A stretch of DNA of 64,000 nucleotides from Christensenella sp. (GTDB lineage Bacteria; Bacillota; Clostridia; Christensenellales; UBA3700), in contig JALFUR010000006.1 of the NCBI GenBank assembly GCA_022784465.1, positions 30,921 to 94,920 of the forward strand, in the 5' to 3' direction. Made by a program: the position numbers and the translations under genes. Below the pieces are notes generated by a model. The model saw only the letters and a list, made by a program, of their open reading frames with translations, was not told the origin of the DNA and searched no databases. Positions 4,218 to 33,961 of this stretch are shown in pieces; position 1 is the stretch's first letter, and every line of letters begins with the position of its first letter.

Positions 4218-5813
4218 TTATTTTCCTGATTCCCCATAGTTAGATAATACTCTAGCGGATGGATCGTTAACATCACAACCTTTCCACTTTTTGTTTGGCA
4301 TCCAGAAATCTTTTATCATTTCTGCTTGTCCAGGATAATATTTTTCAAATATTTCTCTATACAATAAACTTTCTTTTGTAAATGGCATTGCATGGTATGC
4401 ATATTTTTTTCTCTTTTCTTCAAATTCTTCATCTGAATACAAACTCTCTGCATATTCTTTTAAATCATCAACCATTGAGTGTCCTACGGCATCTGAAAAC
4501 GCTGCTTTTTCTCTATATAAAATAGAATCAGGAAGATAGTCTCCTTCAAAAGCTTTTCTAAGCAAGAACTTACCCTTGCCATATGTGTTCATTTTCTTTT
4601 TAGGATCAATGCTCATAACGTATTTGACAAAATCTAAATCTCCAAAAGGAACACGAGCTTCAATTGAGTTTGCAGAGATGCATCTATCTGCTCTTAATAC
4701 GTCATACATATAAAGCTCAGATATTCTCTTTTCTGCTTCTTTTTGGAACTCTTCTGCACTTGGAGCAAAATCTGTATATTTATATCCAAAAAGTTCATCA
4801 GATATTTCACCTGTCAACAAAACTCTTATATCGCTTTGTTCATGTATTGCTTTACATATTAAATACATACCCATGGAAGCTCTAATTGTCGTTATATCAA
4901 ACGTTTCTAATACTTTAATAACTTCTTCTAGGCTAGACAATACATCTTCTCTAGTCATTATTATTTCTTTATGATCTGAACCAATATAATCAGCTACTTC
5001 TTTAGCATATTTTAAATCAATAGCATCTTTTTTCATTCCAATAGCATAAGTTCTTATTGGCTTTTTTAACATTTTTTGTGCTACAGCACAAACTAGTGAA
5101 GAATCCAATCCGCCACTTAACAAGAATCCAAGTGGCGCGTCAGCATCTAGTCTCTTTTCTATACCATATGTTAATTTATCATGGATTTTCTTATAAATTG
5201 TGTCTAAATCATCATCTACATATGATTTAGCAGTAGCAATATCATTGTAGCAAATGAACTTTCCATCTTTATAATAATGTCCTGGTGGGAATGGCATAAT
5301 TTTATCTGAAAAAGCTAAAAGGTTTTTAGCTTCAGATGCAAACATTATTTTACCCTCTTTAGAATAAGCATAGAATAAAGGTCTAATACCAATTGGATCT
5401 CTTGCTGCAATAAATGAATCTGTTTTTGAATCATAGATAATCATTGCAAACTCAGCATCTAATTCCTTAAACATTTCTACGCCTTTTTCTTTATATAAAG
5501 GCAAGATAATTTCACAATCGCTATCTGATTTAAACTTATATTTTTTAGACAACTCTTCTTTTATTGGTCTAAAACAATAAATCTCTCCATTGCATACAAC
5601 AAAGTCCCCATCTAAACTAAATGGTTGCATACCTTCATCTGTTAAACCCATAATGGCTAATCTGTTGAAACCAATATAACCCGACTTTAATTGAATAGTC
5701 CTTGTCATATCTGGACCACGTTTACTAGTTTTAGACAAACTATCTTTAAATTCTTCTAAGCTGATATCCAAACCAGCATAACTCATAATTGAACACATTG
5801 TGTACCTCCACAA
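4218..5813 (-). CDS. asnB: Asparagine synthase (glutamine-hydrolysing)
   Basis: Class II GATase N-terminus (CSIMSYAG...) and synthase motif FLLSGGLDSSLV; start probably at the internal Met of MCSIMSYAG. Confidence 0.92.
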   Translation of the reverse strand: MWRYTMCSIMSYAGLDISLEEFKDSLSKTSKRGPDMTRTIQLKSGYIGFNRLAIMGLTDEGMQPFSLDGDFVVCNGEIYCFRPIKEELSKKYKFKSDSDCEIILPLYKEKGVEMFKELDAEFAMIIYDSKTDSFIAARDPIGIRPLFYAYSKEGKIMFASEAKNLLAFSDKIMPFPPGHYYKDGKFICYNDIATAKSYVDDDLDTIYKKIHDKLTYGIEKRLDADAPLGFLLSGGLDSSLVCAVAQKMLKKPIRTYAIGMKKDAIDLKYAKEVADYIGSDHKEIIMTREDVLSSLEEVIKVLETFDITTIRASMGMYLICKAIHEQSDIRVLLTGEISDELFGYKYTDFAPSAEEFQKEAEKRISELYMYDVLRADRCISANSIEARVPFGDLDFVKYVMSIDPKKKMNTYGKGKFLLRKAFEGDYLPDSILYREKAAFSDAVGHSMVDDLKEYAESLYSDEEFEEKRKKYAYHAMPFTKESLLYREIFEKYYPGQAEMIKDFWMPNKKWKGCDVNDPSARVLSNYGESGK

Positions 5814-6090
5814 ATAAAATACAGCTACTCGACCTAATTATTTTAGGGCGAATAGCTGCTGCTTCGCGGTACCACCTAATTTCACTCATAAAGAGCCTCT
5901 TTTCACTTCACGTCATTGTAAAGCTAACACCTGTAACGGGCTGTACCCGGATTCCCTACTCTCTTGCGATTTCAGTTCACAACTTCTGAGTGTTATTCAA
6001 TTTAGGCTATCGATGGTTTTTCACTATCACCAACTCACTGTGCATAGTTGACTAAATCTACTTGTCTCAGTCACCGTCTTTATTTAATAT
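5814..6090 (-). ncRNA. T-box leader upstream of asnB, predicted Asn (AAC) specifier
   Basis: Minus strand contains the T-box core AGGTGGTACCGCG (about 5865-5877), a downstream CAGCTATTCGCCCTAA...TTAGGTCGAGTAGCTG terminator followed by U-rich sequence, and GAATAACAC with AAC at 5994-5992 in the specifier-loop region. Confidence 0.88.
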
Positions 6091-7867: not shown

Positions 7868-10800
7868 TTATACCTCGATTTCTCCATTATATACAGTTTC
7901 AGCGCTACCGGTCATATATACAACATCGTCATCTGTATATCTTATTGTAAGATCTCCACCAAGTAGTTTGACTGTTATGTCCTCATTTCTCTTACAATAT
8001 CCATTTAAAACGGCAGCTACAGCACTAGCACATGCGCCAGTTCCGCAAGCCCAAGTTTCGCCACTTCCTCTTTCCCAAACTCTCATTTTTAAAGTATGGT
8101 CATCAACCACTTTAATAAATTCTGTATTTACTCTCTCTGGGAATAGTGGATCGTTCTCGAAAATTGGTCCTATTTTTTCAATGTCCAGATTATCTACGTT
8201 GCTTACAAATGTTACACAATGAGGATTCCCCATAGAAACACATGTAATCTTGTAATCTTTTCCATTGATTGTGTATAGTTCATTTATCATAGATTTTCCA
8301 TTGAACTTTATTGGAATCTTCTTTGGATCAAGTTCTGCCTTTCCCATGTTTACAGTTACTGCATTAACTTCTCCATAAACAGTCTGAACTTTTACATCTT
8401 TAATTCCTGATAAAGTTTCAATTTTAAATTCTTTTTTATGAACAATATTGTTATCATAGCAATATTTTGCTACGCATCTTATACCATTTCCACACATTTT
8501 TCCTTCAGAGCCATCAAGGTTAAACATTCTCATTTTTGCATCAGCAACATCTGAATCGCAAATTAAGATAACTCCATCTCCTCCAATTCCAATGTGTCTA
8601 TCTGATAATCTTACAGATAATTCTTCTGGATTATCTAGCACGTTGTTATTTGTACAATCAAAATAGATGTAGTCATTTCCGCAACCTTGCATCTTTGTAA
8701 ATGGTCTTTTTTGTTTGTGCTTATGAAGCTTATTGATATCAATAAGTTCTGTATTGTATTCTGTATATCTACTCAATAGACTATTAGCAACAGCAGCAGC
8801 TGTATCAATAGAAGTTAAGCAAGGAATTGCTCTTTCTACAGCTTTTCTTCTAATCTTTACACTGTCTCTTGTTGGAAGTTTACCTTTCGATGATGTGGAT
8901 ATAATATAGTTAATTTTTCCTGTTTCAAGTAATGTTAAGGAATTGTGTATAGGATCTTCGTGAATCTTATTTACTATATTTACTTCAAGCCCAATATCTC
9001 TAAGAATTCTTGCTGTTCCTTCTGTTGCATAGATGTTGTAACCTAAATCAGAGAACTTTTGTGCGATTTCTCCAATTTCAGCTTTATCTGTTTGTCTAAC
9101 AGTAATAAATACACCGCCCTTTTTCTCAAGTTTATATCCAGCAGCGATTAGTCCCTTATAAATTGCCTCTTCTTGAGTTGTAGCAATACCAAGTACTTCT
9201 CCAGTAGACTTCATCTCTGGTCCTAAATGAGTATCTACATTTATTAATTTTTCAAAGCTAAATACTGGAATCTTTACAGCAACATATGGAGAGTTTGGAT
9301 ACAATCCTGTTCCAAATCCTAAATCTTTTAATTTTTCACCTAAGATACATTTTGTTGCCAAATCTACCATTGGAACACCTGTAACTTTAGAAATGTATGG
9401 AACTGTTCTTGAAGATCTTGGATTTACTTCAATAATGTATAACTCATTTTTATAAATTAAATATTGGATATTTACAAGACCAATTGTATGAAGTTCAAGT
9501 GCCAAACTCTTTGAGCATTCGATTATTCTATTTATCATTTCGTCTGTAAGACCAAATGCAGGATAAACAGCAATACTATCACCTGAGTGAACACCAGTTC
9601 TTTCAACGTGTCTCATAATACCTGGGATTAAAATGTCCTCTCCATCGCAAATAGCATCAACCTCAAGTTCTGCTCCCATTAAATATTGGTCAATAAGTAC
9701 TGGGTTTTCAATTCCTTGCGACAAAATTACGTCCATGTATTCAATTACGTCTTCATCGCTGTTACAAATGGTCATGTTTTGACCACCAAGTACATATGAA
9801 GGTCTAAGCAATGTTGGATAGCCAATTTCATTTGCAACTTTTAAAGCTTCTTCTTTCGTCATAACTGTATATCCTACAGGACGCTTTATCTTCAACTTCT
9901 CTAAAAGTTCATCAAACAATTCTCTATCTTCAGCCATATCGATGTATTCTATTTGAGTACCAAGAATTTTAACATCCATATTCTTTAGCATTTTTGTTAA
10001 CTTAATTGCTGTTTGTCCACCAAAAGCAACAACAACGCCATATGGCTTTTCCGTTTCAAGAATATTTATTACATCCTCATTTGTTAATGGCTCAAAATAC
10101 AATCTATCTGCTGTGTCAAAATCTGTAGATACTGTTTCTGGGTTATTATTTACAATAACAACCTCGTATCCTGCTTTCTTTAACGACCAAACACAGTGAA
10201 CTGAAGCATAGTCAAACTCGATTCCTTGGCCAATTCTTATTGGGCCAGCACCAAATACTATTACTTTTTTCTTGTCAGATTTCCTTTTTTCTATAAACTC
10301 TGCTGCTTCATTTTCATCATCATATGTTGAATAGAAATATGGAGTTTGAGCTTCAAACTCTGCAGCACAAGTATCTACCATTTTATATACTGCATGTCTC
10401 TTGTTCTTAATTTTTTGATTAGAAAACTCTTCTATTGTTTTATCTAAAAAGCCTAATTTCTTTGCTTCTAGATATAATTCATCTGTTAGTTCCTCTTTTT
10501 GCAATCTATTTTGCATTTGAACTAATTTCGAAAGTTTTGCTATAAACCATTTATCTATTTTTGTCTTTCTATTAATCTTCTCAATAGAAACTCCTCTTTT
10601 TAAGCTCTCATATACACAGAAGATTCTCTCATCGTCTACATCGTACAACTTTTGTGCTAATTCTACATCATCCATTGCCATAAACTTTGGATCATTAAAT
10701 GTGTCATGAGAAATTTCAGCTCCACGAACAGCTTTCATAATAGCCTGTTCAAAAGTAGGAGCTATGGCCATAACTTCTCCTGTTGCCTTCATTTGTGTTC

Positions 10801-11917
10801 CAAGTTTTCTACTTGCATAGAAGAACTTATCAAAAGGCCATTTTGGATACTTTACAACCACATAGTCTAATGCTGGTTCAAAACAAGCATATGTTGTTCC
10901 TGTTACGGCATTTTTAATTTCGTCAAGTGTATATCCTATTGAAATTTTTGTAGCTACTTTAGCAATTGGATATCCTGTTGCTTTTGATGCTAAAGCGGAA
11001 GATCTACTAACACGTGGGTTTACTTCAATAACTGCATATTCAAACGAATCTGGATTTAATGCAAATTGACAGTTACATCCACCCTCTATCTTTAAAGCAT
11101 CAATTATGCTTAAAGCAGCAGATCTTAGCATTTGGTATTCCCTATCTGCTAAAGTAACAGCTGGAGCAATTACTATACTATCTCCTGTATGCACACCAAC
11201 AGGGTCAAAGTTTTCCATTGAACAAATAGTAATAACATTACCAGCGCTATCTCTCATTACTTCAAATTCTATTTCTTTCCAACCTGATATACATTTTTCA
11301 ACAAGAATTTGATGTATTGGAGAACTTCTTAATCCGTTTTGTGCAATCTCTATAAATTGATCTTCATCATTACAAATTCCACCACCAGTTCCTCCTAGTG
11401 TAAATGCTGGACGAACTATAACTGGATAGCCAAGTTTTCTTGCAACTTCAATTGCTGAATCAATATCGTTAACAACCTCTGATGGAATTGTTGGTTGATT
11501 TATAGATGCAAGTGTATCTTTGAATAATTGTCTATCTTCTGCCTTATCAATGGTGTCTGGTCTTGCTCCTAAAAGCTTAACTCCCATTTTGTCTAAAAAT
11601 CCTTCTTTTGCAAGCTGCATAGAAAGAGTTAATCCAATTTGTCCTCCCATTGTTGAAAGTAAACTATCTGGTCTTTCTTTTTCAATTATTCTCTTTATTG
11701 TTGTAATTGTTAAAGGTTCAATATAAATTCTATCTGCAACCGCATGATCGGTCATAATTGTAGCAGGATTTGAGTTTACAAGAACAACTTCAAGTCCGTC
11801 TTCTTTTAAAGCTTTACAAGCCTGTGTTCCAGCATAGTCAAACTCTGCTGCTTGTCCTATAATAATTGGGCCGGAGCCAATAACCATAACTTTTTGAATA
11901 TCTTTTCTTAGTGGCAT
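7868..11917 (-). CDS. carB-dapF: Fusion protein: carbamoyl-phosphate synthase large subunit (N-terminal about 1070 aa) + diaminopimelate epimerase (C-terminal about 275 aa)
   Basis: One uninterrupted 1349-aa ORF. N-term MPLRKDIQKVMVIGSGPIIIGQAAEFDYAG and second ATP-grasp half VIVFGAGPIRIGQGIEFDYASVH; C-term FTKMQGCGNDYIYFD, GSEGKMCGNGIRC and GSGETWACGTGACASAV (both DapF catalytic cysteines). Confidence 0.95.
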   Translation of the reverse strand: MPLRKDIQKVMVIGSGPIIIGQAAEFDYAGTQACKALKEDGLEVVLVNSNPATIMTDHAVADRIYIEPLTITTIKRIIEKERPDSLLSTMGGQIGLTLSMQLAKEGFLDKMGVKLLGARPDTIDKAEDRQLFKDTLASINQPTIPSEVVNDIDSAIEVARKLGYPVIVRPAFTLGGTGGGICNDEDQFIEIAQNGLRSSPIHQILVEKCISGWKEIEFEVMRDSAGNVITICSMENFDPVGVHTGDSIVIAPAVTLADREYQMLRSAALSIIDALKIEGGCNCQFALNPDSFEYAVIEVNPRVSRSSALASKATGYPIAKVATKISIGYTLDEIKNAVTGTTYACFEPALDYVVVKYPKWPFDKFFYASRKLGTQMKATGEVMAIAPTFEQAIMKAVRGAEISHDTFNDPKFMAMDDVELAQKLYDVDDERIFCVYESLKRGVSIEKINRKTKIDKWFIAKLSKLVQMQNRLQKEELTDELYLEAKKLGFLDKTIEEFSNQKIKNKRHAVYKMVDTCAAEFEAQTPYFYSTYDDENEAAEFIEKRKSDKKKVIVFGAGPIRIGQGIEFDYASVHCVWSLKKAGYEVVIVNNNPETVSTDFDTADRLYFEPLTNEDVINILETEKPYGVVVAFGGQTAIKLTKMLKNMDVKILGTQIEYIDMAEDRELFDELLEKLKIKRPVGYTVMTKEEALKVANEIGYPTLLRPSYVLGGQNMTICNSDEDVIEYMDVILSQGIENPVLIDQYLMGAELEVDAICDGEDILIPGIMRHVERTGVHSGDSIAVYPAFGLTDEMINRIIECSKSLALELHTIGLVNIQYLIYKNELYIIEVNPRSSRTVPYISKVTGVPMVDLATKCILGEKLKDLGFGTGLYPNSPYVAVKIPVFSFEKLINVDTHLGPEMKSTGEVLGIATTQEEAIYKGLIAAGYKLEKKGGVFITVRQTDKAEIGEIAQKFSDLGYNIYATEGTARILRDIGLEVNIVNKIHEDPIHNSLTLLETGKINYIISTSSKGKLPTRDSVKIRRKAVERAIPCLTSIDTAAAVANSLLSRYTEYNTELIDINKLHKHKQKRPFTKMQGCGNDYIYFDCTNNNVLDNPEELSVRLSDRHIGIGGDGVILICDSDVADAKMRMFNLDGSEGKMCGNGIRCVAKYCYDNNIVHKKEFKIETLSGIKDVKVQTVYGEVNAVTVNMGKAELDPKKIPIKFNGKSMINELYTINGKDYKITCVSMGNPHCVTFVSNVDNLDIEKIGPIFENDPLFPERVNTEFIKVVDDHTLKMRVWERGSGETWACGTGACASAVAAVLNGYCKRNEDITVKLLGGDLTIRYTDDDVVYMTGSAETVYNGEIEV

Positions 11918-13014: not shown

Positions 13015-13581
13015 TTATTCATATATGTCTAAAACGGCCTTCGCGATTTCTTTTCTTGTTCGTCTTTGATTCATCGCAGTTTTTTCAATATGCTTATGCG
13101 CATCTTCCTCGCTCATATGTTCGTGAATAATAAGTGCACATTTTGCCCTATCTACTAGTTTTAGTTCCTCAATCTTGTCTTCTAACTTCCTGTTTTTCTT
13201 TAAAAGATTTTCAAATCTTTCGTTCATTGCTCTAAAAATTGATAGACTTTTCATTAACAATAATAGTGATACAGGTTTTGGTAAAACTAGAACTCCGTTA
13301 CTCTCCAACTTTGACTCGACAGCCTCACGAATATCCGATTTTACTAATAGTATCACATTAGTGATATTATTATCAAGCGCGAAAAGGGATAAATCACTGC
13401 CAAATTCGTCCTCAAGTGGAGCATTAATTATAACCATCGAAAAAGGTTGCGCGCCAAGCATTCTTCTCGCTTCACTTCCATTTGTAACTCTTTGGATGTT
13501 TAAAAATCCAGCAGACTTAATAACCTGCGTGATTTCTTGTGGAATCTCTCCTTTTGAAACGAAAAGTAACGTGTCTAGCAT
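13015..13581 (-). CDS. ANTAR-domain response regulator (putative RNA-binding antiterminator)
   Basis: C-terminal ANTAR signature LEDKIEELKLVDRAKCALIIHEHMSEEDAHKHIEKTAMNQRRTRKEIAKAVL; N-terminal receiver-like domain. Confidence 0.88.
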   Translation of the reverse strand: MLDTLLFVSKGEIPQEITQVIKSAGFLNIQRVTNGSEARRMLGAQPFSMVIINAPLEDEFGSDLSLFALDNNITNVILLVKSDIREAVESKLESNGVLVLPKPVSLLLLMKSLSIFRAMNERFENLLKKNRKLEDKIEELKLVDRAKCALIIHEHMSEEDAHKHIEKTAMNQRRTRKEIAKAVLDIYE

Positions 13582-13585
13582 TTAA

Positions 13586-14860
13586 TTAAACTCTACCAAA
13601 ATATCTTTCTGTTAAATATTTGTGCTTGTCTCCAGATGACTCAACATCTTCAATTTCTTTCTTCTTATATGCAATTATTTGTTTAAACAACGAATCAGGA
13701 AGTACACTCTTAACAAATTCGCTGTTTTCTGCCAATTCTATTGCTTCATGTAAATCTTGAGGTAAAGATAAAGCTCCATCACTTTCATCTAATTTATGTT
13801 CGATTTTGTTTTCTAAAACCATATTTTGTTTTAGACCCTCAAGACCTGCCATCAAAAGTAATGCGTATACAATGTAAGGATTACATGATGGATCTGCAGA
13901 ATTAATTGTTGCTTTGTATTTTCCAATTTTTATAACTTGGTTAAATCTTTGAGATGCCCAAGCTACATATTTTGGAGAACTTTCTGATTGGAATCTTTCA
14001 TAAGAATTTGGCATTGGATTCATAAACAATGCAATTTCTCTCAATCTATTCAATATTCCAGCTAAGAAGGATTTTACTTCTACACTATCTATATCGCAAA
14101 TTTCTAATCCCTTTAGTAAAGATATATTTATCTTTAAACCGCTTCCTTCTTTGTCTTTTAATGGCTTAGGTAAAAATGATGCATATAAGCCATTAGATGC
14201 AGAAATTGACTTAACTGTTGTCTTAAATGTCATTACGTCATCTGCAGCTTTTAGCGCATCATTATAATTAAATCTAATTTCGTTTTGTCCTGGACCTTTT
14301 TCGTGATGTGATGAGGTAGGTTTTAGTCCTAATCTTTCAAGAGTAAAACAGATCTCTCTTCTAACATTTTCACCTTTATCTAATGGAGCTACATCTAAAT
14401 AGCCTGCTCTATCAAAAGGAATATTAGTTGGTTGACCTTTTTCGTCTAATTCAAATAAATAAAATTCGCAATCTGAGCCAATTGTACACTTATATCCTAA
14501 TTTCTTTAATTCCTTTTCTGCTTGTTGAAGCAAACTTCTTGAATCGCATTCAGCAACTGTACCATCAGGGTATTTTAAATTGGAATATAATCTTATAACA
14601 GAACCATGTTGTGGTCTCCATGGTAGTACTTGTATTGTTGATGGATCTGGGAATAATCTTATATCTCCTTTGTCATAAGAAGCAATTCCATCAAAAGCTT
14701 CAGCATCAATGGATATGCCCTTTTCAAAAACATCTTCGATTTCAGAAGCAAGAACAGAAATATTCTTTAAATTTCCCAAAATATCGCAGAATGTTAATTT
14801 GACAAACTTAACATCATTCTCCTGAATAAAATCCATAACTTCTCTAATTGTTTGATTCAT
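13586..14860 (-). CDS. glnA: Glutamine synthetase type I (short, GSI-alpha-like)
   Basis: VKLTFCDILGNLKNISV, SSHHEKGPGQNEIRF and NPYIVYALLLMAG motifs. Confidence 0.95.
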   Translation of the reverse strand: MNQTIREVMDFIQENDVKFVKLTFCDILGNLKNISVLASEIEDVFEKGISIDAEAFDGIASYDKGDIRLFPDPSTIQVLPWRPQHGSVIRLYSNLKYPDGTVAECDSRSLLQQAEKELKKLGYKCTIGSDCEFYLFELDEKGQPTNIPFDRAGYLDVAPLDKGENVRREICFTLERLGLKPTSSHHEKGPGQNEIRFNYNDALKAADDVMTFKTTVKSISASNGLYASFLPKPLKDKEGSGLKINISLLKGLEICDIDSVEVKSFLAGILNRLREIALFMNPMPNSYERFQSESSPKYVAWASQRFNQVIKIGKYKATINSADPSCNPYIVYALLLMAGLEGLKQNMVLENKIEHKLDESDGALSLPQDLHEAIELAENSEFVKSVLPDSLFKQIIAYKKKEIEDVESSGDKHKYLTERYFGRV

Positions 14861-14902: not shown

Positions 14903-15625
14903 TTAATTACTTACATATAATTGTTTATACGGATTTTTACTATTAGCTTCAAGAACATAAAAGCTCTTTTTCATAATATCCGATTTTTTTGCTCCAAAAT
15001 AATCACAATATTCTGAAACATATTTTTCAATTTCTACTATATCTTTTTCATTTGCCTTATGGCAAACGATTTGACTTGGAAGTTCCGGAACAGTATCACA
15101 TCTTAATATAATTTTTCCACCATGCATTCCATTTCCAGTAAAATAACCGACTATTTTATCGTTTTCAACACCAATGCCTAGAACTATTATAACACCACCA
15201 GCTTGATATTCGCCCAAGAAACTTCCCGCTTTTCCGCCTATTACTAAAATAGGATATTTTTCCTTATAAGCTTTCATGTGAATTCCTGCTCTATATCCAG
15301 CATTTCCTTCAATGAAAATCTTTCCGCCTCTCATAGCATATCCAGTAGCATCACCTGAATTTCCTCTGATTATTATTACTCCATCATTCATTGTATCGCC
15401 AACAGCATCTTGCGCAGAACCCATAACCTCGATTCTGCAACCATTTAAATACGAGCCAAGAGCGTTTCCAGGAGTTCCTTCAATAACAACATTCTTGCCA
15501 CCAACACCAGAACATATGTATCTATGTCCCATACAATTAATAATTTTTATGTTCTTTTCTTCAGATTCTCTTACTTCTTTACAAATTTCCTGAAAATCCT
15601 TTCCGTTGCAATCAATAATTTTCAT
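14903..15625 (-). CDS. Stand-alone glutamate synthase alpha-subunit C-terminal domain (GXGXG beta-helix)
   Basis: Repeated G-x-x-G-x-x-x-G blocks: GAKNVVIEGTPGNALGSYLNGCRIEVMGSAQDAVGDTMNDGVIIIRGNSGDATGYAMRGG type. Confidence 0.88.
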   Translation of the reverse strand: MKIIDCNGKDFQEICKEVRESEEKNIKIINCMGHRYICSGVGGKNVVIEGTPGNALGSYLNGCRIEVMGSAQDAVGDTMNDGVIIIRGNSGDATGYAMRGGKIFIEGNAGYRAGIHMKAYKEKYPILVIGGKAGSFLGEYQAGGVIIVLGIGVENDKIVGYFTGNGMHGGKIILRCDTVPELPSQIVCHKANEKDIVEIEKYVSEYCDYFGAKKSDIMKKSFYVLEANSKNPYKQLYVSN

Positions 15626-16884
15626 TAATGCGACCTCCCAAGAATGTATTCTCTCTTTTCCTTTTTAAATGCCATCAATTGAGGAGCAACTCTAATCAAT
15701 GAATAATCAAGTTCTTTTAAATCTGTCTTGCTCCTAACTAGCGATGTATATATACCAGCTCTTGATATATCTCCAATCATAATGAAACCTTTAAGAACAT
15801 TATCTTTTGTAAATAATACCTTATAATTTTTTCCATCATCGCACACAACGTCTTTATCTCCAATATAACTACCAGCGGTAACTACATGTAGATTAAAAAA
15901 TCCAATTGAGTTCATAGGTAGCCCCTGATCAAAACTGCTTTCTACCCCTGCCATTGTTCTACCTGCTGCGCGACCTAAAAAATATGCATTTGGTAGTATT
16001 GCAACAATTCTATCTGTATCGCAAGAGATATCATGACAAACACAATTATCTCCGCCAGCATAAATGTCTTTTATAGACGTTCTAGAGCAATTATCTATAA
16101 CTATACCTTTTTCAACTTTTCCTCCGATATCGCTTAGAAGCTGAACGTTTGGTCTAACTCCTACCGCCGTTACAAGAATGTCAAAATCAACCTTCTTTTC
16201 AGATTTTAATATCGCAGTATTTTTGTCAAACTTTGCAACGCTGTCAGATAAAATAAATTCAACGCCCAAAGATTCTAGATAAGTTTTTATATACTCGCTA
16301 CCTCTTGAATCTAATATGCTTGGCAACACTCTATCTGCTAAATCTACAACAGTAATTTTGTCTACTCTATCTTTAATACCCTCTACACATTTTAATCCTA
16401 TCAAACCGGCACCAACTACTAGCACCTTTGAATCTTTAGTTAACACTTTCTCTAGCGAAAGAGCATCATCAAGCGTCATAAAAGAAAATCTATTTTTAAC
16501 ATTTTCAATGCCTTCCATTTTTGGTAAAAAAGGAACAGAACCAGTTGCTAACATTAATTTTTCATAAGGAATAATTTGATTATTACTCAATACAACTTCC
16601 TTTTTTTCTTTATTTATTGCAGTTGCTCTTACTCCTAATATCGTTTCAACTTTATTGTTTATATAATAGTCTTTATCTCTATAATCAATCTTGTCTAATG
16701 AAGTCTTTCCCATTAATAAATAAGAAATTAATGGACGTCCATAGACAAAATGATTTTCCTCCCCAATTACAGTAATTGAGCCTTCTTTGTCTATTTCTCT
16801 TATACCCTCAATACAACCACATGCAGCAATTGAATTTCCAATAATAACATACTTTGCCATATCTTTATCTCTCCTCATATACAA
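15625..16884 (-). CDS. NAD(P)/FAD-dependent pyridine nucleotide-disulfide oxidoreductase (glutamate synthase electron-input subunit)
   Basis: KYVIIGNSIAACGCIEGI, KVLVVGAGLIGLKCVEGI, DIYAGGDNCVC; in operon with gltS pieces. Confidence 0.85.
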   Translation of the reverse strand: MYMRRDKDMAKYVIIGNSIAACGCIEGIREIDKEGSITVIGEENHFVYGRPLISYLLMGKTSLDKIDYRDKDYYINNKVETILGVRATAINKEKKEVVLSNNQIIPYEKLMLATGSVPFLPKMEGIENVKNRFSFMTLDDALSLEKVLTKDSKVLVVGAGLIGLKCVEGIKDRVDKITVVDLADRVLPSILDSRGSEYIKTYLESLGVEFILSDSVAKFDKNTAILKSEKKVDFDILVTAVGVRPNVQLLSDIGGKVEKGIVIDNCSRTSIKDIYAGGDNCVCHDISCDTDRIVAILPNAYFLGRAAGRTMAGVESSFDQGLPMNSIGFFNLHVVTAGSYIGDKDVVCDDGKNYKVLFTKDNVLKGFIMIGDISRAGIYTSLVRSKTDLKELDYSLIRVAPQLMAFKKEKREYILGRSH

Positions 16885-17294
16885 TTGCTCTATTTGGGCA
16901 ACCCTTTACACAAGCTGGTTCACCGCAAGCATTTTTGGTGCATAGTTCACACTTTTGCATTGGGCCCTCATCGCTTGGCATTATAGCTCCAGCAGGGCAT
17001 GCCATTACACAACTAAAACAACCAACACATTTTTCTTTATCTATGCAAATTAGTCCATCTTTAATACTAAGCGCTCCTGCAATACATGAACGAACACATA
17101 CTGGGTCTTCGCACTGTCTACATTGAACAGCAAAAGACACTCCGTTTAAAGTTTCAACTCTAACTCTAGGATTTATCTTTACCCCTTTTAAAGCTTTAAC
17201 CATATCTTCTTTACCTGAATTTGCAAATGCACAATTGTATTCACAAAGTCTACATCCTAAACACCATTTTTCATTTACATAAATTCTTTTCATA

Positions 17295-17308
<14 letters not shown>
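16865..17308 (-). CDS. 4Fe-4S ferredoxin-type electron transfer subunit
   Basis: Multiple CxxCxxCxxxC clusters (CLGCRLCEYNC, CRQCEDPVCVRSC, CVGCFSCVMACP, CELCTKNACGEPACVKGCP). Confidence 0.88.
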
Positions 17309-18800
<1,492 letters not shown>

Positions 18801-18801
18801 A

Positions 18802-19896
18802 TTAACGATCCTCCTTTTTGTTCAAATTAACAATTACTGGTTCTCCACCTCTTGGAGCCCAAATATTTTTAATATTTGGCTCTAGCACTCTTATAGCACA
18901 TTCTTCTGATGCAATATATGTCGTATTTCCCTTTTCGCCTACAACCATACTTCTTAATTTCAATCTGTCGTTTAGTGCCATAAGTCCGCCGTTATATCCT
19001 ACAATAATAGAAAATGGACCAGTGATTAACAAGCTTGAAAACATGTTTCTTAAGTATTCAAACTTTTCTCTTTCCTTTTCTGGCTTTGATGCAATTGTAG
19101 ACCAGAATGGTGCAGCAATAACTGATGCCATTTCTTCCATAGACAATTTTTGACGTCTAACTAAATAATCTACAATGTAGGCAATAACTTCTGTATCTGT
19201 CATTAAAGTGCATTTATAGCCAAACATTTCAATAAATCTTCTGTTTGCATCATAAGAAGATATTTCTCCATTATGAACAACTGAGTAGTCTAATATGCCG
19301 AATGGATGAGCGCCTCCCCACCAACCAGGAGTGTTTGTTGGATATCTTCCATGCGCAGTCCAGCAATATCCTTCATATTCGTCTAAGCGATAATACTCGC
19401 CAACGTCTTCTGGGAAACCAACAGCTTTAAAAATGCCCATATTCTTTCCGCTAGAAAAAACATATGCGCCTTTTATTTGTGTATTAATTTTCATAACGCT
19501 TCTAGCAACGAATTCCTTTTCTTCTAAATTAGTTTCAAGCAATCTAGCGTCCAAAGGATTAACGAAATATCTATAAATTAGAGGCTCATCTGTAATCCCT
19601 TTAGTTTTTCTTGTTGGAATCATAGACATATTTATAATTGCATAGTTTTGATATAAATATTGTTCACATTCTTGTCTAGATATATTTGAATCAAAGAAAA
19701 TGTGAAATGCATATAAATCTTTGTATTGGGGATATATTCCATATCCTGCAAAACCACCGCCAAGACCATTGGATCTATCGTGCATAGTAGCAATAGATTT
19801 TATAATTGCTGAACCATTAATAGCTTCTCCATCTTTATTAATGATTCCACAAATTGCACAACCTGATGGTATTCTTACTTCTCCTTCTTTTAACAT
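18802..19896 (-). CDS. Glutamate synthase amidotransferase (class II GATase) domain protein
   Basis: Start re-assigned from 19977 to Met at 19896 (SD AAAGGAG): MLKEGEVRIPSGCAICGIINKDG...; HGRYPTNTPGWWGGAHPFGILDYSVVHNGEI. The ORF-track N-terminal 27 aa overlap the promoter -10 and the attenuator hairpin. Confidence 0.88.
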   Translation of the reverse strand: MLKEGEVRIPSGCAICGIINKDGEAINGSAIIKSIATMHDRSNGLGGGFAGYGIYPQYKDLYAFHIFFDSNISRQECEQYLYQNYAIINMSMIPTRKTKGITDEPLIYRYFVNPLDARLLETNLEEKEFVARSVMKINTQIKGAYVFSSGKNMGIFKAVGFPEDVGEYYRLDEYEGYCWTAHGRYPTNTPGWWGGAHPFGILDYSVVHNGEISSYDANRRFIEMFGYKCTLMTDTEVIAYIVDYLVRRQKLSMEEMASVIAAPFWSTIASKPEKEREKFEYLRNMFSSLLITGPFSIIVGYNGGLMALNDRLKLRSMVVGEKGNTTYIASEECAIRVLEPNIKNIWAPRGGEPVIVNLNKKEDR

Positions 19897-19917: not shown

Positions 19918-19975
19918 CAAAAAAAGGAAAAGGTGCCAAATCGCACATACGACTTGAACACCTTTGTCCTTTTGC
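19918..19975 (-). terminator. Promoter-proximal intrinsic terminator/attenuator in the gltS operon leader
   Basis: Minus strand AAAGGTG-TTC-AAGTCG-TATGTG-CGATTT-GG-CACCTTTTCCTTTTTTTG; 5' edge lies about one transcript start from the -10. Confidence 0.75.
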
Positions 19976-19978
19976 ATT

Positions 19979-20008
19979 AGTGTAATTTAAATCCTTTTGT
20001 CATGTCAA
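19979..20008 (-). promoter_or_regulatory. Putative gltS operon promoter
   Basis: Minus strand TTGACA (20008-20003), 18 bp, TACACT (19984-19979). Confidence 0.55.
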
Positions 20009-20187
20009 TATTTTTTTACAAAAATTATTTGAAAAAATCCTACTTTTGCAAATTAATATTGATTAAATTCTTAAGTCTTTTTTATATAATTTTTATTAAA
20101 AAAATTTTATCTATATAGAGCTTTAAAAAGATTTTTTTAGCTCATTTTTCCAAGAAAAATTTTTTTTGAAAAACTTGTATTTTAATA

Positions 20188-20216
20188 TTGACAACAAAAA
20201 AATATGTTCGTATAAT
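20188..20216 (+). promoter_or_regulatory. Perfect-consensus promoter for the type III glutamine synthetase
   Basis: TTGACA (20188-20193), 17 bp, TATAAT (20211-20216). Confidence 0.85.
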
Positions 20217-20242
20217 GATGCCATAAATTATAAATGAATTGC

Positions 20243-20279
20243 AAAGGCGCGTTTAGTGTTGATCTAAATGGCGCCTTTT
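20243..20279 (+). terminator. Promoter-proximal intrinsic terminator/attenuator upstream of GSIII
   Basis: AAAGGCGC-G-TTTAG-TGTTGAT-CTAAA-TG-GCGCCTTTTT, starting about 20 nt after the predicted transcription start. Confidence 0.78.
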
Positions 20280-20320
20280 TCATTTGTTGAAGAATAAACA
20301 AAGAAAGGAGAATATATTAA

Positions 20321-22408
20321 ATGAGTACATCAGAAATTTTTGGTAGCAACGTTTTTAACGATGCGGTTATGCAAGAAAAGTTGCCAAAAGCAACATATAA
20401 AGAATTAAAACAATGTATAGCAAATAATAAGTCTATACCTTTAGATCTTGCTCAAGTTGTTGCCAATGCAATGAAGGACTGGGCAATTGAAAAAGGTTGC
20501 ACACACTACACTCACTGGTTCCAACCAATGACAGGTATTACTGCAGAGAAACATGATGCATTTATTCAGCCTTCAAGTGATGGAAAAGTAATTATGGAAT
20601 TTTCCGGTAAAGAATTAGTTAAAGGTGAGCCTGATGCTTCTTCTTTCCCTTCTGGCGGAATTCGTGCTACTTTCGAAGCAAGAGGTTATACAGCATGGGA
20701 CCCTACAGCTTTTGCATTTGTAAAAGATTCATCTTTATACATTCCTACAGTATTTTGTTCATATACTGGAGAAGTTTTAGATAAGAAGACTCCACTTTTA
20801 AAATCTATGCAAGCTGTTTCTACGCAAGCATGTAGAATACTAAAATTATTTGGAAAAGATGTAGATAAAGTTACATCAGAAGTAGGACCTGAACAAGAAT
20901 ATTTCTTAGTAGATAAATCAGTATATGAAAAAAGACCAGATTTAGTTTTCACTGGAAGAACACTATTTGGTGCTCCAGCTCCAAAAGGACAAGAACTTGA
21001 AGATCACTATTTTGGTGCAATTAAGGAAAGAGTTGCTTCATACATGAAAGAACTTGATGAAGAACTATGGAAACTTGGAATTTATGCTAAGACAAAACAC
21101 AACGAAGTTGCTCCAGCTCAACATGAGCTTGCTCCAATTTATGGAGATTCAAACACAGCAACAGATCATAACCAATTAACAATGGAGATTATGAAAAAAG
21201 TTGCTTCAAGACATGATATGGTTTGTCTATTACATGAAAAACCATTTAAAGGAGTAAATGGATCTGGTAAACATAACAACTGGTCTATGTCAACATCATC
21301 AGGTGAAGGATTATTTAAACCAGGCGACACACCAGAAGAAAACTTACAATTCTTATTATTCTTAGCTGCAACAATTAAAGGTGTAGATGAATATCAAGAT
21401 TTATTGAGAGTATCTGTAGCAACAGCAGGCAATGATCATAGATTAGGCGCAAACGAAGCCCCTCCTGCTATTGTATCTATGTTCTTAGGTGATGAATTAG
21501 CTGGTATTGTTGATGCTATTGCTGAAGGTAGAAGTTATTCAAAACGTGCAAAATGCGCTTTTGAATTAGGCGTAGATGTACTTCCTACATTCATTAAGGA
21601 TACAACAGATAGAAATAGAACATCTCCATTTGCTTTTACTGGAAACAAATTTGAATTCAGAATGCTAGGTTCTTCCCTATCTATTGCTGGTCCAAACATT
21701 ATTCTAAATACAATGATGGCAGAAGAATTAGAAGAATTTGCTGATATACTTGAAAAAGCAAGTGACTTTACAAGTGCTGTTAAAGATTTAATCAAGAAGA
21801 CTATTATTGAACATAGAAGAATAATCTTCAATGGAAACGGTTATTCTGATGAATGGGTTAAAGAAGCTGAAAAACGTGGCTTACTAAACATTAAGTCTAC
21901 TCCTGAAGCAATTCCTCTATTTAAGGCAGAGAAGAATATTAAACTATTTGAAAAACATGGTGTATTTACTCCAGCTGAAGTCATTTCAAGAACAGAGATT
22001 CTTTTAGAGAACTATTCAAAGATTATTGATATTGAAGCAAATACAATGATTGAAATGACAAAGAAAGAAGTATTACCTGCTGAACTTGAATACATAAAAG
22101 AATTAGCTAAGACAATTTCTAAAGCAACAAGCATTTGTGATTGCATTGATATGTCTAGTGAAAAAGAACAATTAAAAACTGTAACTGATTTATATAACAA
22201 GGCCTATAAAGCAGTAAATGAATTAATTGCAGCTGTTGATGAAGCACAAGGCATTAGCGATGGCGAAGCTCAAGCACTAGCATTTAGAAAGAGTGTATTT
22301 GAGAAGATGGAAGAATTAAGAACTTATGTTGACGCAATGGAAGTTAATACTGCAAAGAAGTATTGGCCATATCCAAGTTATGGTGACATGTTGTTCTCTG
22401 TTAAATAA
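20321..22408 (+). CDS. glnN: Glutamine synthetase type III
   Basis: 695 aa; THWFQPMTGITAEKHDAFI, EVGPEQEYFLVD, KHNEVAPAQHELAPIY; SD AAAGGAG. Confidence 0.95.
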   Translation: MSTSEIFGSNVFNDAVMQEKLPKATYKELKQCIANNKSIPLDLAQVVANAMKDWAIEKGCTHYTHWFQPMTGITAEKHDAFIQPSSDGKVIMEFSGKELVKGEPDASSFPSGGIRATFEARGYTAWDPTAFAFVKDSSLYIPTVFCSYTGEVLDKKTPLLKSMQAVSTQACRILKLFGKDVDKVTSEVGPEQEYFLVDKSVYEKRPDLVFTGRTLFGAPAPKGQELEDHYFGAIKERVASYMKELDEELWKLGIYAKTKHNEVAPAQHELAPIYGDSNTATDHNQLTMEIMKKVASRHDMVCLLHEKPFKGVNGSGKHNNWSMSTSSGEGLFKPGDTPEENLQFLLFLAATIKGVDEYQDLLRVSVATAGNDHRLGANEAPPAIVSMFLGDELAGIVDAIAEGRSYSKRAKCAFELGVDVLPTFIKDTTDRNRTSPFAFTGNKFEFRMLGSSLSIAGPNIILNTMMAEELEEFADILEKASDFTSAVKDLIKKTIIEHRRIIFNGNGYSDEWVKEAEKRGLLNIKSTPEAIPLFKAEKNIKLFEKHGVFTPAEVISRTEILLENYSKIIDIEANTMIEMTKKEVLPAELEYIKELAKTISKATSICDCIDMSSEKEQLKTVTDLYNKAYKAVNELIAAVDEAQGISDGEAQALAFRKSVFEKMEELRTYVDAMEVNTAKKYWPYPSYGDMLFSVK

Positions 22409-22437
22409 AACATTATTACTTATCATATTATAAACAC

Positions 22438-22476
22438 AAAGATGTGCTCTTACCTTTAGGGCACATCTTTCTTTTT
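22438..22476 (+). terminator. Intercistronic intrinsic terminator/attenuator between glnN and amt-PII
   Basis: AAAGATGTGC-TCTTACCTTTAGG-GCACATCTTTCTTTTT. Confidence 0.75.
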
Positions 22477-22503: not shown

Positions 22504-24303
22504 ATGGAAGAATTATTGCAAGCTTTTCCTGCACTAAGTGAGATTACTGGTTCATTAGATGCGACTTGGATCTTAGTTGGAATCACTTTAGTATTTTTCA
22601 TGCAATGTGGATTCGCAATGGTAGAAACTGGTTTCACACGTGCAAAGAATGCAGGAAACATTATTATGAAAAACTTGATGGATTTTTGTCTTGGTGCAAT
22701 CGCATTCTGGTTAATTGGATACTCAATTATGATTGGCCATCTTATAAATCCTATTACTATGACATATGTTGTAGATGGTGTTACTGAGAATGTTGACATG
22801 CTACACTTTATGTTCTTCTTAGTCTTCTGTGCTACAACAGCTACTATTGTATCTGGAGCTATGGCAGAAAGAACAAGATTTATTACATATTGTGTATATA
22901 GTGTTTGCATTTCAGCCTTCATCTTCCCTGTTACAGGTAACTGGATTTGGAATGGTGGATTCTTATCTCAATGGGGCTTCCATGATTTTGCAGGATCTAC
23001 AGCAGTTCATATGATTGGTGGTATCCTTGCTTTAATCGGTGCATGGATGCTAGGCCCAAGAATTGGTAAATATAAGAAATTAGAAAATGGAAAATTAGAA
23101 TCTAAAGCTATTCCTGGACACAGTTTAACTCTTGGTGCATTAGGTGTATTCATCCTATTCTACGGATGGTATGGATTCAATGGTGCAAGTGAATATGCTA
23201 TTGTTGGTGCAGAAACAGCAGCAAATGTATCTTTAGTATTTGTTACTACAACTATGGCACCAGCCGTTGCTACAACTACTGTTATGATCATTACATGGAT
23301 TAGATATAAAAAGCCTGATGTTTCTATGACATTAAATGGAACACTTGCTGGTCTTGTTGCTATTACAGCAGGATGTGATCAAGTTTCTGTATTTGGTGCA
23401 GTATGTATTGGTTTATTAGCCGGTTTTGTCGTTGTATTTGGTATTGAATTTTTGGATCAAAAATTGCATGTTGATGACCCAGTAGGTGCTGTTGGTGTTC
23501 ACTGCTTCAATGGTGCTTTAGGAACAGTGCTAACAGGCGTATTTAGTATAAATGGTATATATGGTGCTATTACAAAAAATGTAACAGTTAGCGAAGGATT
23601 TAAATTTTTTGGAATTCAAGTAGCTGGTGTTGCTATATGTGCTGTCTTCACTATTGCTTGTGGTTTAGTATTATTCTTCATTTTAAAGAAGACATTAAAA
23701 CTAAGAGTTACAAAGGAAGAAGAAATTTTAGGTCTAGATTTAACAGAGCATGGTCTTGTAAGTTCTTATGCAGACTTTATGCCTACAGTTGCTGGTGAAT
23801 CATTAACTGGTTCAATGGATAAAGGTGAAATGGCTACACAAGAGGTTGTTAAATCTAAAGATGAAGTATTTGATGTTAATAAGCCTTTAACAGTTGATGA
23901 ATCTGTTCCTGTTAAGAAGGTTACTACTTCAATTGGAAAAGAAGGTCCAAAGATGAGTAAAATTGTAATTTTAGCAAACCCAGCTAAATTTGAAGATTTG
24001 AAAAAAGCTATGGATGGAATTGGAATTACAGGTATGACAGTTACTAATGTAACAGGATGCGGATTACAAAAAGGTGATACAAACAATTACTATCGTGGTG
24101 TTAAAGTTGATATTTCATTACGTCCAAAGATAAAGATGGAACTTGTTGTATCAAAGATCCCTGTAGAAACAGTAATTATGGCAGCAAAAAATGCTCTTTA
24201 TACAGGTAACTATGGTGATGGAAAAATATTTGTCTACGATGTTGATAATGTCTATAAAGTTCGTACTGGCGAATGGGACTATGCAGCATTGCAAGATGAA
24301 TAG
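22504..24303 (+). CDS. amtB: Ammonium transporter (Amt) with C-terminal PII (GlnK/GlnB-like) domain
   Basis: Start at MEELLQAFPALSE (SD GGAGG). Amt motifs ATWILVGITLVFFMQCGFAMVETG and GSTAVHMIGGILAL; C-terminal PII-like MSKIVILANPAKFEDLKKAMDGIGITGMTVTNVTGCGLQKG...YTGNYGDGKIFVYDVDNVYKVRTGE. Confidence 0.92.
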   Translation: MEELLQAFPALSEITGSLDATWILVGITLVFFMQCGFAMVETGFTRAKNAGNIIMKNLMDFCLGAIAFWLIGYSIMIGHLINPITMTYVVDGVTENVDMLHFMFFLVFCATTATIVSGAMAERTRFITYCVYSVCISAFIFPVTGNWIWNGGFLSQWGFHDFAGSTAVHMIGGILALIGAWMLGPRIGKYKKLENGKLESKAIPGHSLTLGALGVFILFYGWYGFNGASEYAIVGAETAANVSLVFVTTTMAPAVATTTVMIITWIRYKKPDVSMTLNGTLAGLVAITAGCDQVSVFGAVCIGLLAGFVVVFGIEFLDQKLHVDDPVGAVGVHCFNGALGTVLTGVFSINGIYGAITKNVTVSEGFKFFGIQVAGVAICAVFTIACGLVLFFILKKTLKLRVTKEEEILGLDLTEHGLVSSYADFMPTVAGESLTGSMDKGEMATQEVVKSKDEVFDVNKPLTVDESVPVKKVTTSIGKEGPKMSKIVILANPAKFEDLKKAMDGIGITGMTVTNVTGCGLQKGDTNNYYRGVKVDISLRPKIKMELVVSKIPVETVIMAAKNALYTGNYGDGKIFVYDVDNVYKVRTGEWDYAALQDE

Positions 24304-33863: not shown

Positions 33864-33961
33864 AAAAAACTCCTTTTGTCTATGTATGCATATAATAGCA
33901 CAATTATACTTTTTGCATAACCAAATTAATATATATTTTCTTAATTTATTTACATATAAAA

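Follow-up and report, generated by a model that had tools for sequence, protein, structure and literature searches.

The gltS operon, glnN and amt in this window (the whole 64,000-nucleotide stretch of Christensenella sp. DNA that was analyzed) each appear to lie under an attenuator whose antiterminator is a single hexaloop hairpin recognized by an ANTAR protein, a reading to which we give a probability of roughly 80%. The attenuator is real and conserved and probably ANTAR-operated, with a one-hairpin, 5'-terminal layout that departs from the dual-hexaloop kind known so far. Published ANTAR targets consist of two small hexaloop hairpins with A1 and G4, the second of which overlaps the 5' arm of a terminator (PMC3369931). 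The consensus for the eut targets is AGC-AANGRR-GCUY (AGCAANGRRGCUY), in which A1, G4 and the closing pair are essential in vivo, and the eutP loops are found at A29-G32 and A53-G56 (PMC3369931). A single hexaloop is the minimal EutV binding unit, with a Kd of 3-6 uM, and binds like the pair (PMC8934654). For antitermination, EutV requires the two hairpins together with a short linker (PMC3369931; PMC8934654); a lone hexaloop might therefore be bound and yet fail to antiterminate.

The GOGAT operon on the minus strand and glnN on the plus strand diverge, and the gap between them holds two divergent near-consensus promoters. The operon begins with a class-II glutamine amidotransferase (GATase) subunit, labeled gltS (18802-19896), followed by a glutamate synthase FMN/synthase domain subunit (17295-18800), a 4Fe-4S ferredoxin subunit (16865-17308), a pyridine-nucleotide disulfide oxidoreductase subunit (15625-16884) and a GXGXG (GltB C-terminal) GOGAT subunit (14903-15625). 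A glutamine synthetase (GS) homologue (13586-14860), the ANTAR antiterminator gene (13015-13581) and then carA complete the run, all on the minus strand. Translation of gltS probably starts at 19896 (AAAGGAG...ATG), the start of the longest open reading frame, 19977, being upstream of the predicted transcription start. The 1.59 Mb source assembly contains no ANTAR gene besides the one in the gltS operon (PF03861, E=9e-14). On the plus strand, glnN encodes a type III GS (20321-22408) and is followed by an ammonium transporter fused to a P-II domain in one open reading frame (amt-PII, 22504-24303). A second type III GS gene of the same genome (G000:C11:32059-34137) has no hexaloop upstream. Further along the window, a T-box leader (5841-6083, minus strand, 97 bits) lies directly upstream of an asparagine-synthase-like open reading frame (4218-5813). 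Downstream of carA, a single 1349-amino acid open reading frame (7868-11917, minus strand) looks by eye like a carB-dapF fusion, a carbamoyl-phosphate synthase large chain followed by a diaminopimelate-epimerase-like (DapF) C-terminus.

The glnN promoter (TTGACA-17-TATAAT, 20188-20216, plus strand), the only 12/12 match in 8 kb, has its predicted +1 near 20223, and the gltS-operon promoter (TTGACA-18-TACACT, 20008-19979, minus strand) has its predicted +1 near 19972; all transcription starts given here are predictions, set 7 nt after the -10 box. Intrinsic terminators begin at about +21 in the glnN leader (AAAGGCGC...GGCGCCUUUUU, 20243-20280, plus strand, predicted -16.3 kcal/mol) and at about +8 in the gltS transcript (AAAGGUGUUC...GGCACCUUUUCCUUUUUUU, 19965-19919, minus strand, predicted -21.7 kcal/mol). 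A mechanical terminator scan missed both, probably because of its simple loop and stem rules, and is no evidence against either. A third terminator lies before amt, in the glnN-amt gap (22438-22476, plus strand). The earlier note on this DNA had described good promoters on both strands, an intrinsic terminator almost straight after each predicted start and an ANTAR gene within the gltS operon, all of which we found; its "twin" attenuators are in fact a trio, the element between glnN and amt (22435-22476) having been overlooked.

A hexaloop hairpin of the ANTAR type stands at the 5' foot, that is in the 5' arm, of each of the three terminators. In the gltS transcript, GGAC[AAAGGU]GUUC begins at about +4 (19969-19956, loop 19965-19960, minus strand), and its loop and 3' strand are the 5' arm of the gltS terminator. 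The glnN leader carries UGC[AAAGGC]GCG at about +18 (20240-20251, plus strand), the weakest of the three, and CAC[AAAGAU]GUG (22435-22446, plus strand) occupies the glnN-amt gap before amt-PII. The loops AAAGGU, AAAGGC and AAAGAU fit the published ANTAR hexaloop rule of A1, G4 and a C-G closing pair, and at these sites the hairpin overlaps the terminator as the second hairpin (P2) of an ANTAR-target RNA does. The stems have 4 bp (gltS), 3 bp (glnN) and 3 bp (amt), where ANTAR-target RNAs call for 3 bp or more (Ramesh et al. 2012), each with a C-G closing pair; those of glnN and amt, with only 3 bp and about -1 kcal/mol, count against the reading. Our covariance model R1 scored the gltS element at 36.0 bits (19970-19924, E=1.1e-6, this sequence being itself part of the model) and the glnN element at 23.8 bits (20238-20283, E=0.0012); its search of the window did not pick up the amt hexaloop. 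Extra matches to the model at C3:50820 and at window position 33956 were rejected as further members because there is no hexaloop there, and when the whole assembly was searched for the pattern, no hexaloop with complementary terminator arms came up beyond those of gltS, glnN and amt. The apical hexaloop of the gltS terminator (AAGUCG-UAUGUG-CGAUUU), previously put forward as the ANTAR site, was discarded: its first loop position is U and not A, it falls outside the conserved element, and RNAfold closes it to a tetraloop.

It is highly improbable that the hairpin serves a different RNA-binding regulator or a ligand-binding RNA. The pairing of hexaloop with ANTAR is here made from sequence, which leaves such a reading some room, but the hexaloop is identical to the ANTAR consensus and, as had been noted before, the leaders are too short for a riboswitch aptamer. 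No known RNA family matched at the Rfam gathering threshold, and the matches at permissive thresholds were at chance level.

In order to follow the element beyond this genome, the regions upstream of GATase and glnN homologues were collected and scanned across 149 relatives, which are a non-independent sample. Dozens of genera of Clostridia have this element ahead of GOGAT and GSIII genes, with Ruminococcus albus, Clostridium methylpentosum, Acetivibrio mesophilus, Defluviitalea phaphyphila and Marasmitruncus massiliensis among the named carriers. When 104 promoter-proximal terminators were chosen blind to any hexaloop, 84 had an A1/G4 hexaloop at the 5' arm whose stem ran to 4 bp or more, against a mean of 18 and a maximum of 25 in 200 trials with a shuffled 5' flank. 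Stems picked regardless of loop sequence gave 60 sites with at least 5 bp at a loop size of six, compared with 11.6 in shuffles, and among these 60 loops A1, G4 and the C-G closing pair were each present in 58. An excess at loop size eight is most simply the same stems minus their closing pair. One clade of close relatives (L003-L011) has kept the ANTAR gene and the hexaloop on the glnN side and has no hexaloop on the GOGAT side, which counts against the reading; in L003 a different weak hairpin (GACGGAA...TTTCCGTC) takes its place. In five upstream regions of the collection, two hexaloop attenuators follow one another 65-150 nt apart, apparently each with its own terminator.

The hexaloop helix and the terminator helix are mutually exclusive, and both covary. 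In a 35-sequence alignment the hexaloop stem was 94% paired with 51 double changes and the terminator stem 96% paired with 57 double changes; the covariation score was reached by none of 500 shuffles, and slid controls fell far lower. These sequences, like those of the wider set, were selected on the hexaloop stem, which biases percent paired upward and leaves the diversity of compensating pairs unaffected. These data bear on two other explanations. Plain constitutive terminators close to the promoter, merely damping expression, would by themselves account for an A-rich start and a U-rich end (AAAGGC...GCCUUU). However, the hexaloop stem has an outer strand that usually plays no part in the terminator and yet covaries with the inner one, A1 and G4 are fixed while loop position 3 varies, and hexaloops track ANTAR genes, so that we regard this explanation as very improbable. 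Somewhat less improbable, though still not to be expected, is that ANTAR binds the hexaloop and acts through RNA stability or promoter escape instead of antitermination. A 5'-terminal hairpin can protect an mRNA, and in actinobacteria ANTAR RNAs often work at the level of translation (PMC8164766); against this, the terminator always takes the 3' strand of the hexaloop stem as its 5' arm, the helices covary as exclusive alternatives, and U-tracts follow.

The element differs most from described targets in what precedes it. We took 203 sites with a strong promoter and defined the leader as the distance from the predicted +1 to the hexaloop stem. The predicted leader had a median of 5 nt and was shorter than 15 nt at 192 of the 203 sites, the near-consensus promoters stopping 4-12 nt before the stem in most of them. 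Such a leader is too short for a 12-nt first hairpin (P1) plus linker, so that, with the start sites as predicted, the obligatory P1 of described dual-hexaloop targets cannot exist there. A P1-like hairpin occurred at only one of the 203 sites, and none was found in the leaders of the window, where the tandem arrangement of Ramesh et al. 2012, P1 and P2 separated by a linker of 5-12 nt, is absent. In relatives, a candidate P1 before amt (GUC-AAAGACU-GAC) was dismissed as the end of the glnN coding sequence. One glnN leader (L118) has an extra hairpin ahead of P2 with a loop that does not fit A1/G4. These results weigh on the main competing explanation, a conventional dual-hexaloop element transcribed from another promoter further upstream, with P1 before P2. 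All described ANTAR targets are dual stem-loops, and amt is in a read-through position with upstream RNA available, but the close promoters and the single P1-like hairpin among the 203 sites, together with a glnN-amt gap that likewise lacks P1, make this explanation unlikely. The earlier alternative of an "otherwise unusual" attenuation was apt, given that the first hairpin of the known dual motif would not fit into these leaders.

If the hexaloop is an ANTAR target it should occur with ANTAR genes, and a covariance-model search for the leader in relatives, suggested earlier as a check, gave that result. At E<=0.01 the model matched 75 of the 93 relatives with an ANTAR gene and 7 of the 56 without one (149 in total); the Fisher p of about 1e-16 ignores shared ancestry, and the E-values of the model are rough. 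At E<=0.001 four ANTAR-lacking genomes had matches, which counts against the reading; three of these genomes are 70-80% complete, and the fourth (G083) is 95% complete, its best match having no hexaloop. Among the glnN leaders examined in ANTAR-lacking genomes, those of five genomes have no hexaloop and those of two, 80% and 70% complete, do have it. Titled genome records supplied a second set, of 80 loci, which partly overlaps the first; here an ANTAR gene was found within the same locus of about 17 kb for 38 of 42 hexaloop loci versus 9 of 21 loci without the hexaloop, counting those with enough flank. ANTAR-mediated nitrogen attenuation, as first proposed, is thus strongly supported by the identity of the motif, its covariation, its co-occurrence with ANTAR genes and the single ANTAR gene of this genome, although the hexaloop named in that proposal was the wrong one.

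Matches to the model elsewhere precede apparent gltB, purF, asnA, cyanase and biuret-hydrolase-like genes and an ANTAR gene itself, the products being read by eye from the beginning of the following open reading frame. In six of the collected loci the same attenuator stands before an apparent cyanase, biuret-hydrolase-like enzyme, asnA or purF. These genes appear to have mostly nitrogen functions, which suggests a wider nitrogen regulon.

The ANTAR domain encoded in the window scores 51.4 bits against PF03861, for which the curated cut-off is 27.3. Compared with EutV it keeps the RNA contacts K143, K149, E160, M172, N173 and R175, has Y164H (His as in AmiR), and has lost R142, R168 and R177. 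K149, E160, M172 and N173/D173 are largely kept in the ANTAR; R142 and R168 of EutV are replaced in this ANTAR subfamily, which counts against the reading. Loss of R142 is not supported as the cause of single-hexaloop use, since an ANTAR of family f21 keeps R142 and leaders of that family also have one hexaloop. The pseudo-receiver (IINAPLEDEFG) has no Asp at the position aligned with the phosphorylated Asp of the EutV type. In a motif search that position was Asn in 43 of 52 homologues, with six left unassigned, and homologue receivers mostly read I-N-A/T-P-L-x-D-E. Activation of this ANTAR is therefore probably not by a kinase.

Of the 48 loci with both a GS homologue and an ANTAR gene, 46 have the homologue immediately upstream of ANTAR. 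In the window it has the substitutions H269K, E327S, R339F, E357T and R359N, and it falls below the cut-off of the GlnA equivalog for active type I GS (285 versus 429 bits). Having lost catalytic residues, it is, on this evidence, a clear pseudo-GS in the window's genus. Degeneration as a general rule was rejected, the full loss being confined to that genus and mainly E327 and N264 varying elsewhere. Across the wider set, E327 of the catalytic flap is replaced by Lys in 23 of 48 and is Glu in only 12 of 48, R321, R359 and H269 are nearly always kept, N264 varies, and in other Clostridia the usual Asn of NGSG is never present. By analogy with FBI-GS and GlnR, it is plausible that this GS-derived candidate sensor passes its state to ANTAR; a role of the homologue as nitrogen sensor is the most tentative part of the proposal.

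In the mechanism that we favor, transcripts from the gltS and glnN promoters would carry, close to their very 5' end, a single ANTAR-recognized hexaloop. By default its loop and 3' strand would pair as the 5' arm of the terminator, and RNA polymerase would stop about 50-60 nt after initiation. Under nitrogen limitation, active ANTAR (13015-13581) would bind the hexaloop as it emerges from the polymerase, with G4 flipped onto the ANTAR helix, and by holding that strand would leave the terminator unable to form. With the ANTAR gene inside the gltS operon, such control would be positive autoregulation.

That ANTAR proteins control nitrogen genes, GOGAT and GS among them, is an established prediction (PMC3369931). 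For Clostridium saccharobutylicum, NitR is cited as a GS/GOGAT antiterminator (PMC6316151), and the C. thermocellum cluster Clo1313_2036-2030 (GATase, GS, ANTAR), apparently in the same order as here (GATase ... GS, ANTAR), is co-expressed and has been suggested to be under ANTAR control (PMC4676874). Like the ANTAR gene of the window, those of NitR and Clo1313_2030 are encoded with GS/GOGAT genes and are proposed nitrogen antiterminators; the texts consulted give no RNA target architecture. With EutV/eut of Enterococcus faecalis, NasR/nasF and AmiR/amiE (PMC3369931) our sites share the A1 and G4 hexaloop, the C-G closing pair, the terminator-overlapping hairpin, nitrogen genes and a genome-encoded ANTAR protein, but they have only the terminator-overlapping hairpin, at about +5, with no P1 and no linker. 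One G4 hexaloop binds in vitro as the minimal unit of Walshe et al. 2022, who predicted that single-hexaloop sites might exist (PMC8934654), and the sites described here have the sequence that such a site requires, making them candidates for binding. Those authors expected single sites where the time limit of transcription is absent, whereas here they overlap promoter-adjacent terminators. FBI-GS control of GlnR/TnrA in Gram-positive bacteria likewise places a GS beside a regulator gene as nitrogen sensor (PMC9249791, abstract); here the partner would be an ANTAR protein that binds RNA, and many of the GS homologues have altered catalytic residues.

Walshe et al. 2022 concluded that antitermination requires contact with both loops and called for work and bioinformatics on single-hexaloop sites, and the EutV structural work left open whether one hexaloop serves transcription antitermination (PMC8934654). 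Our search of the open-access literature found no description of single-hexaloop ANTAR antiterminators. This locus and its relatives provide about 200 natural single-hexaloop candidates with a competing terminator, a promoter and a cognate ANTAR protein, some of them in cultured or named species. We tentatively extend the proposal to a three-part nitrogen switch in much of Clostridia, in which a GS-derived, often disabled sensor would act on a phosphorylation-independent ANTAR and this in turn on one hexaloop at the RNA 5' end; it is a possible reading, though a doubtful one as a whole. If it is true, the rule of two hexaloops for ANTAR antitermination would be overturned, and the GS-like protein would be a possible nitrogen sensor for an RNA-binding antiterminator. 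The ANTAR RNA searches consulted define their target as two stem-loops (PMC3369931; PMC8164766), and if our reading is correct, published searches limited to two hairpins have passed over a nitrogen regulon that is widespread in gut and rumen bacteria.
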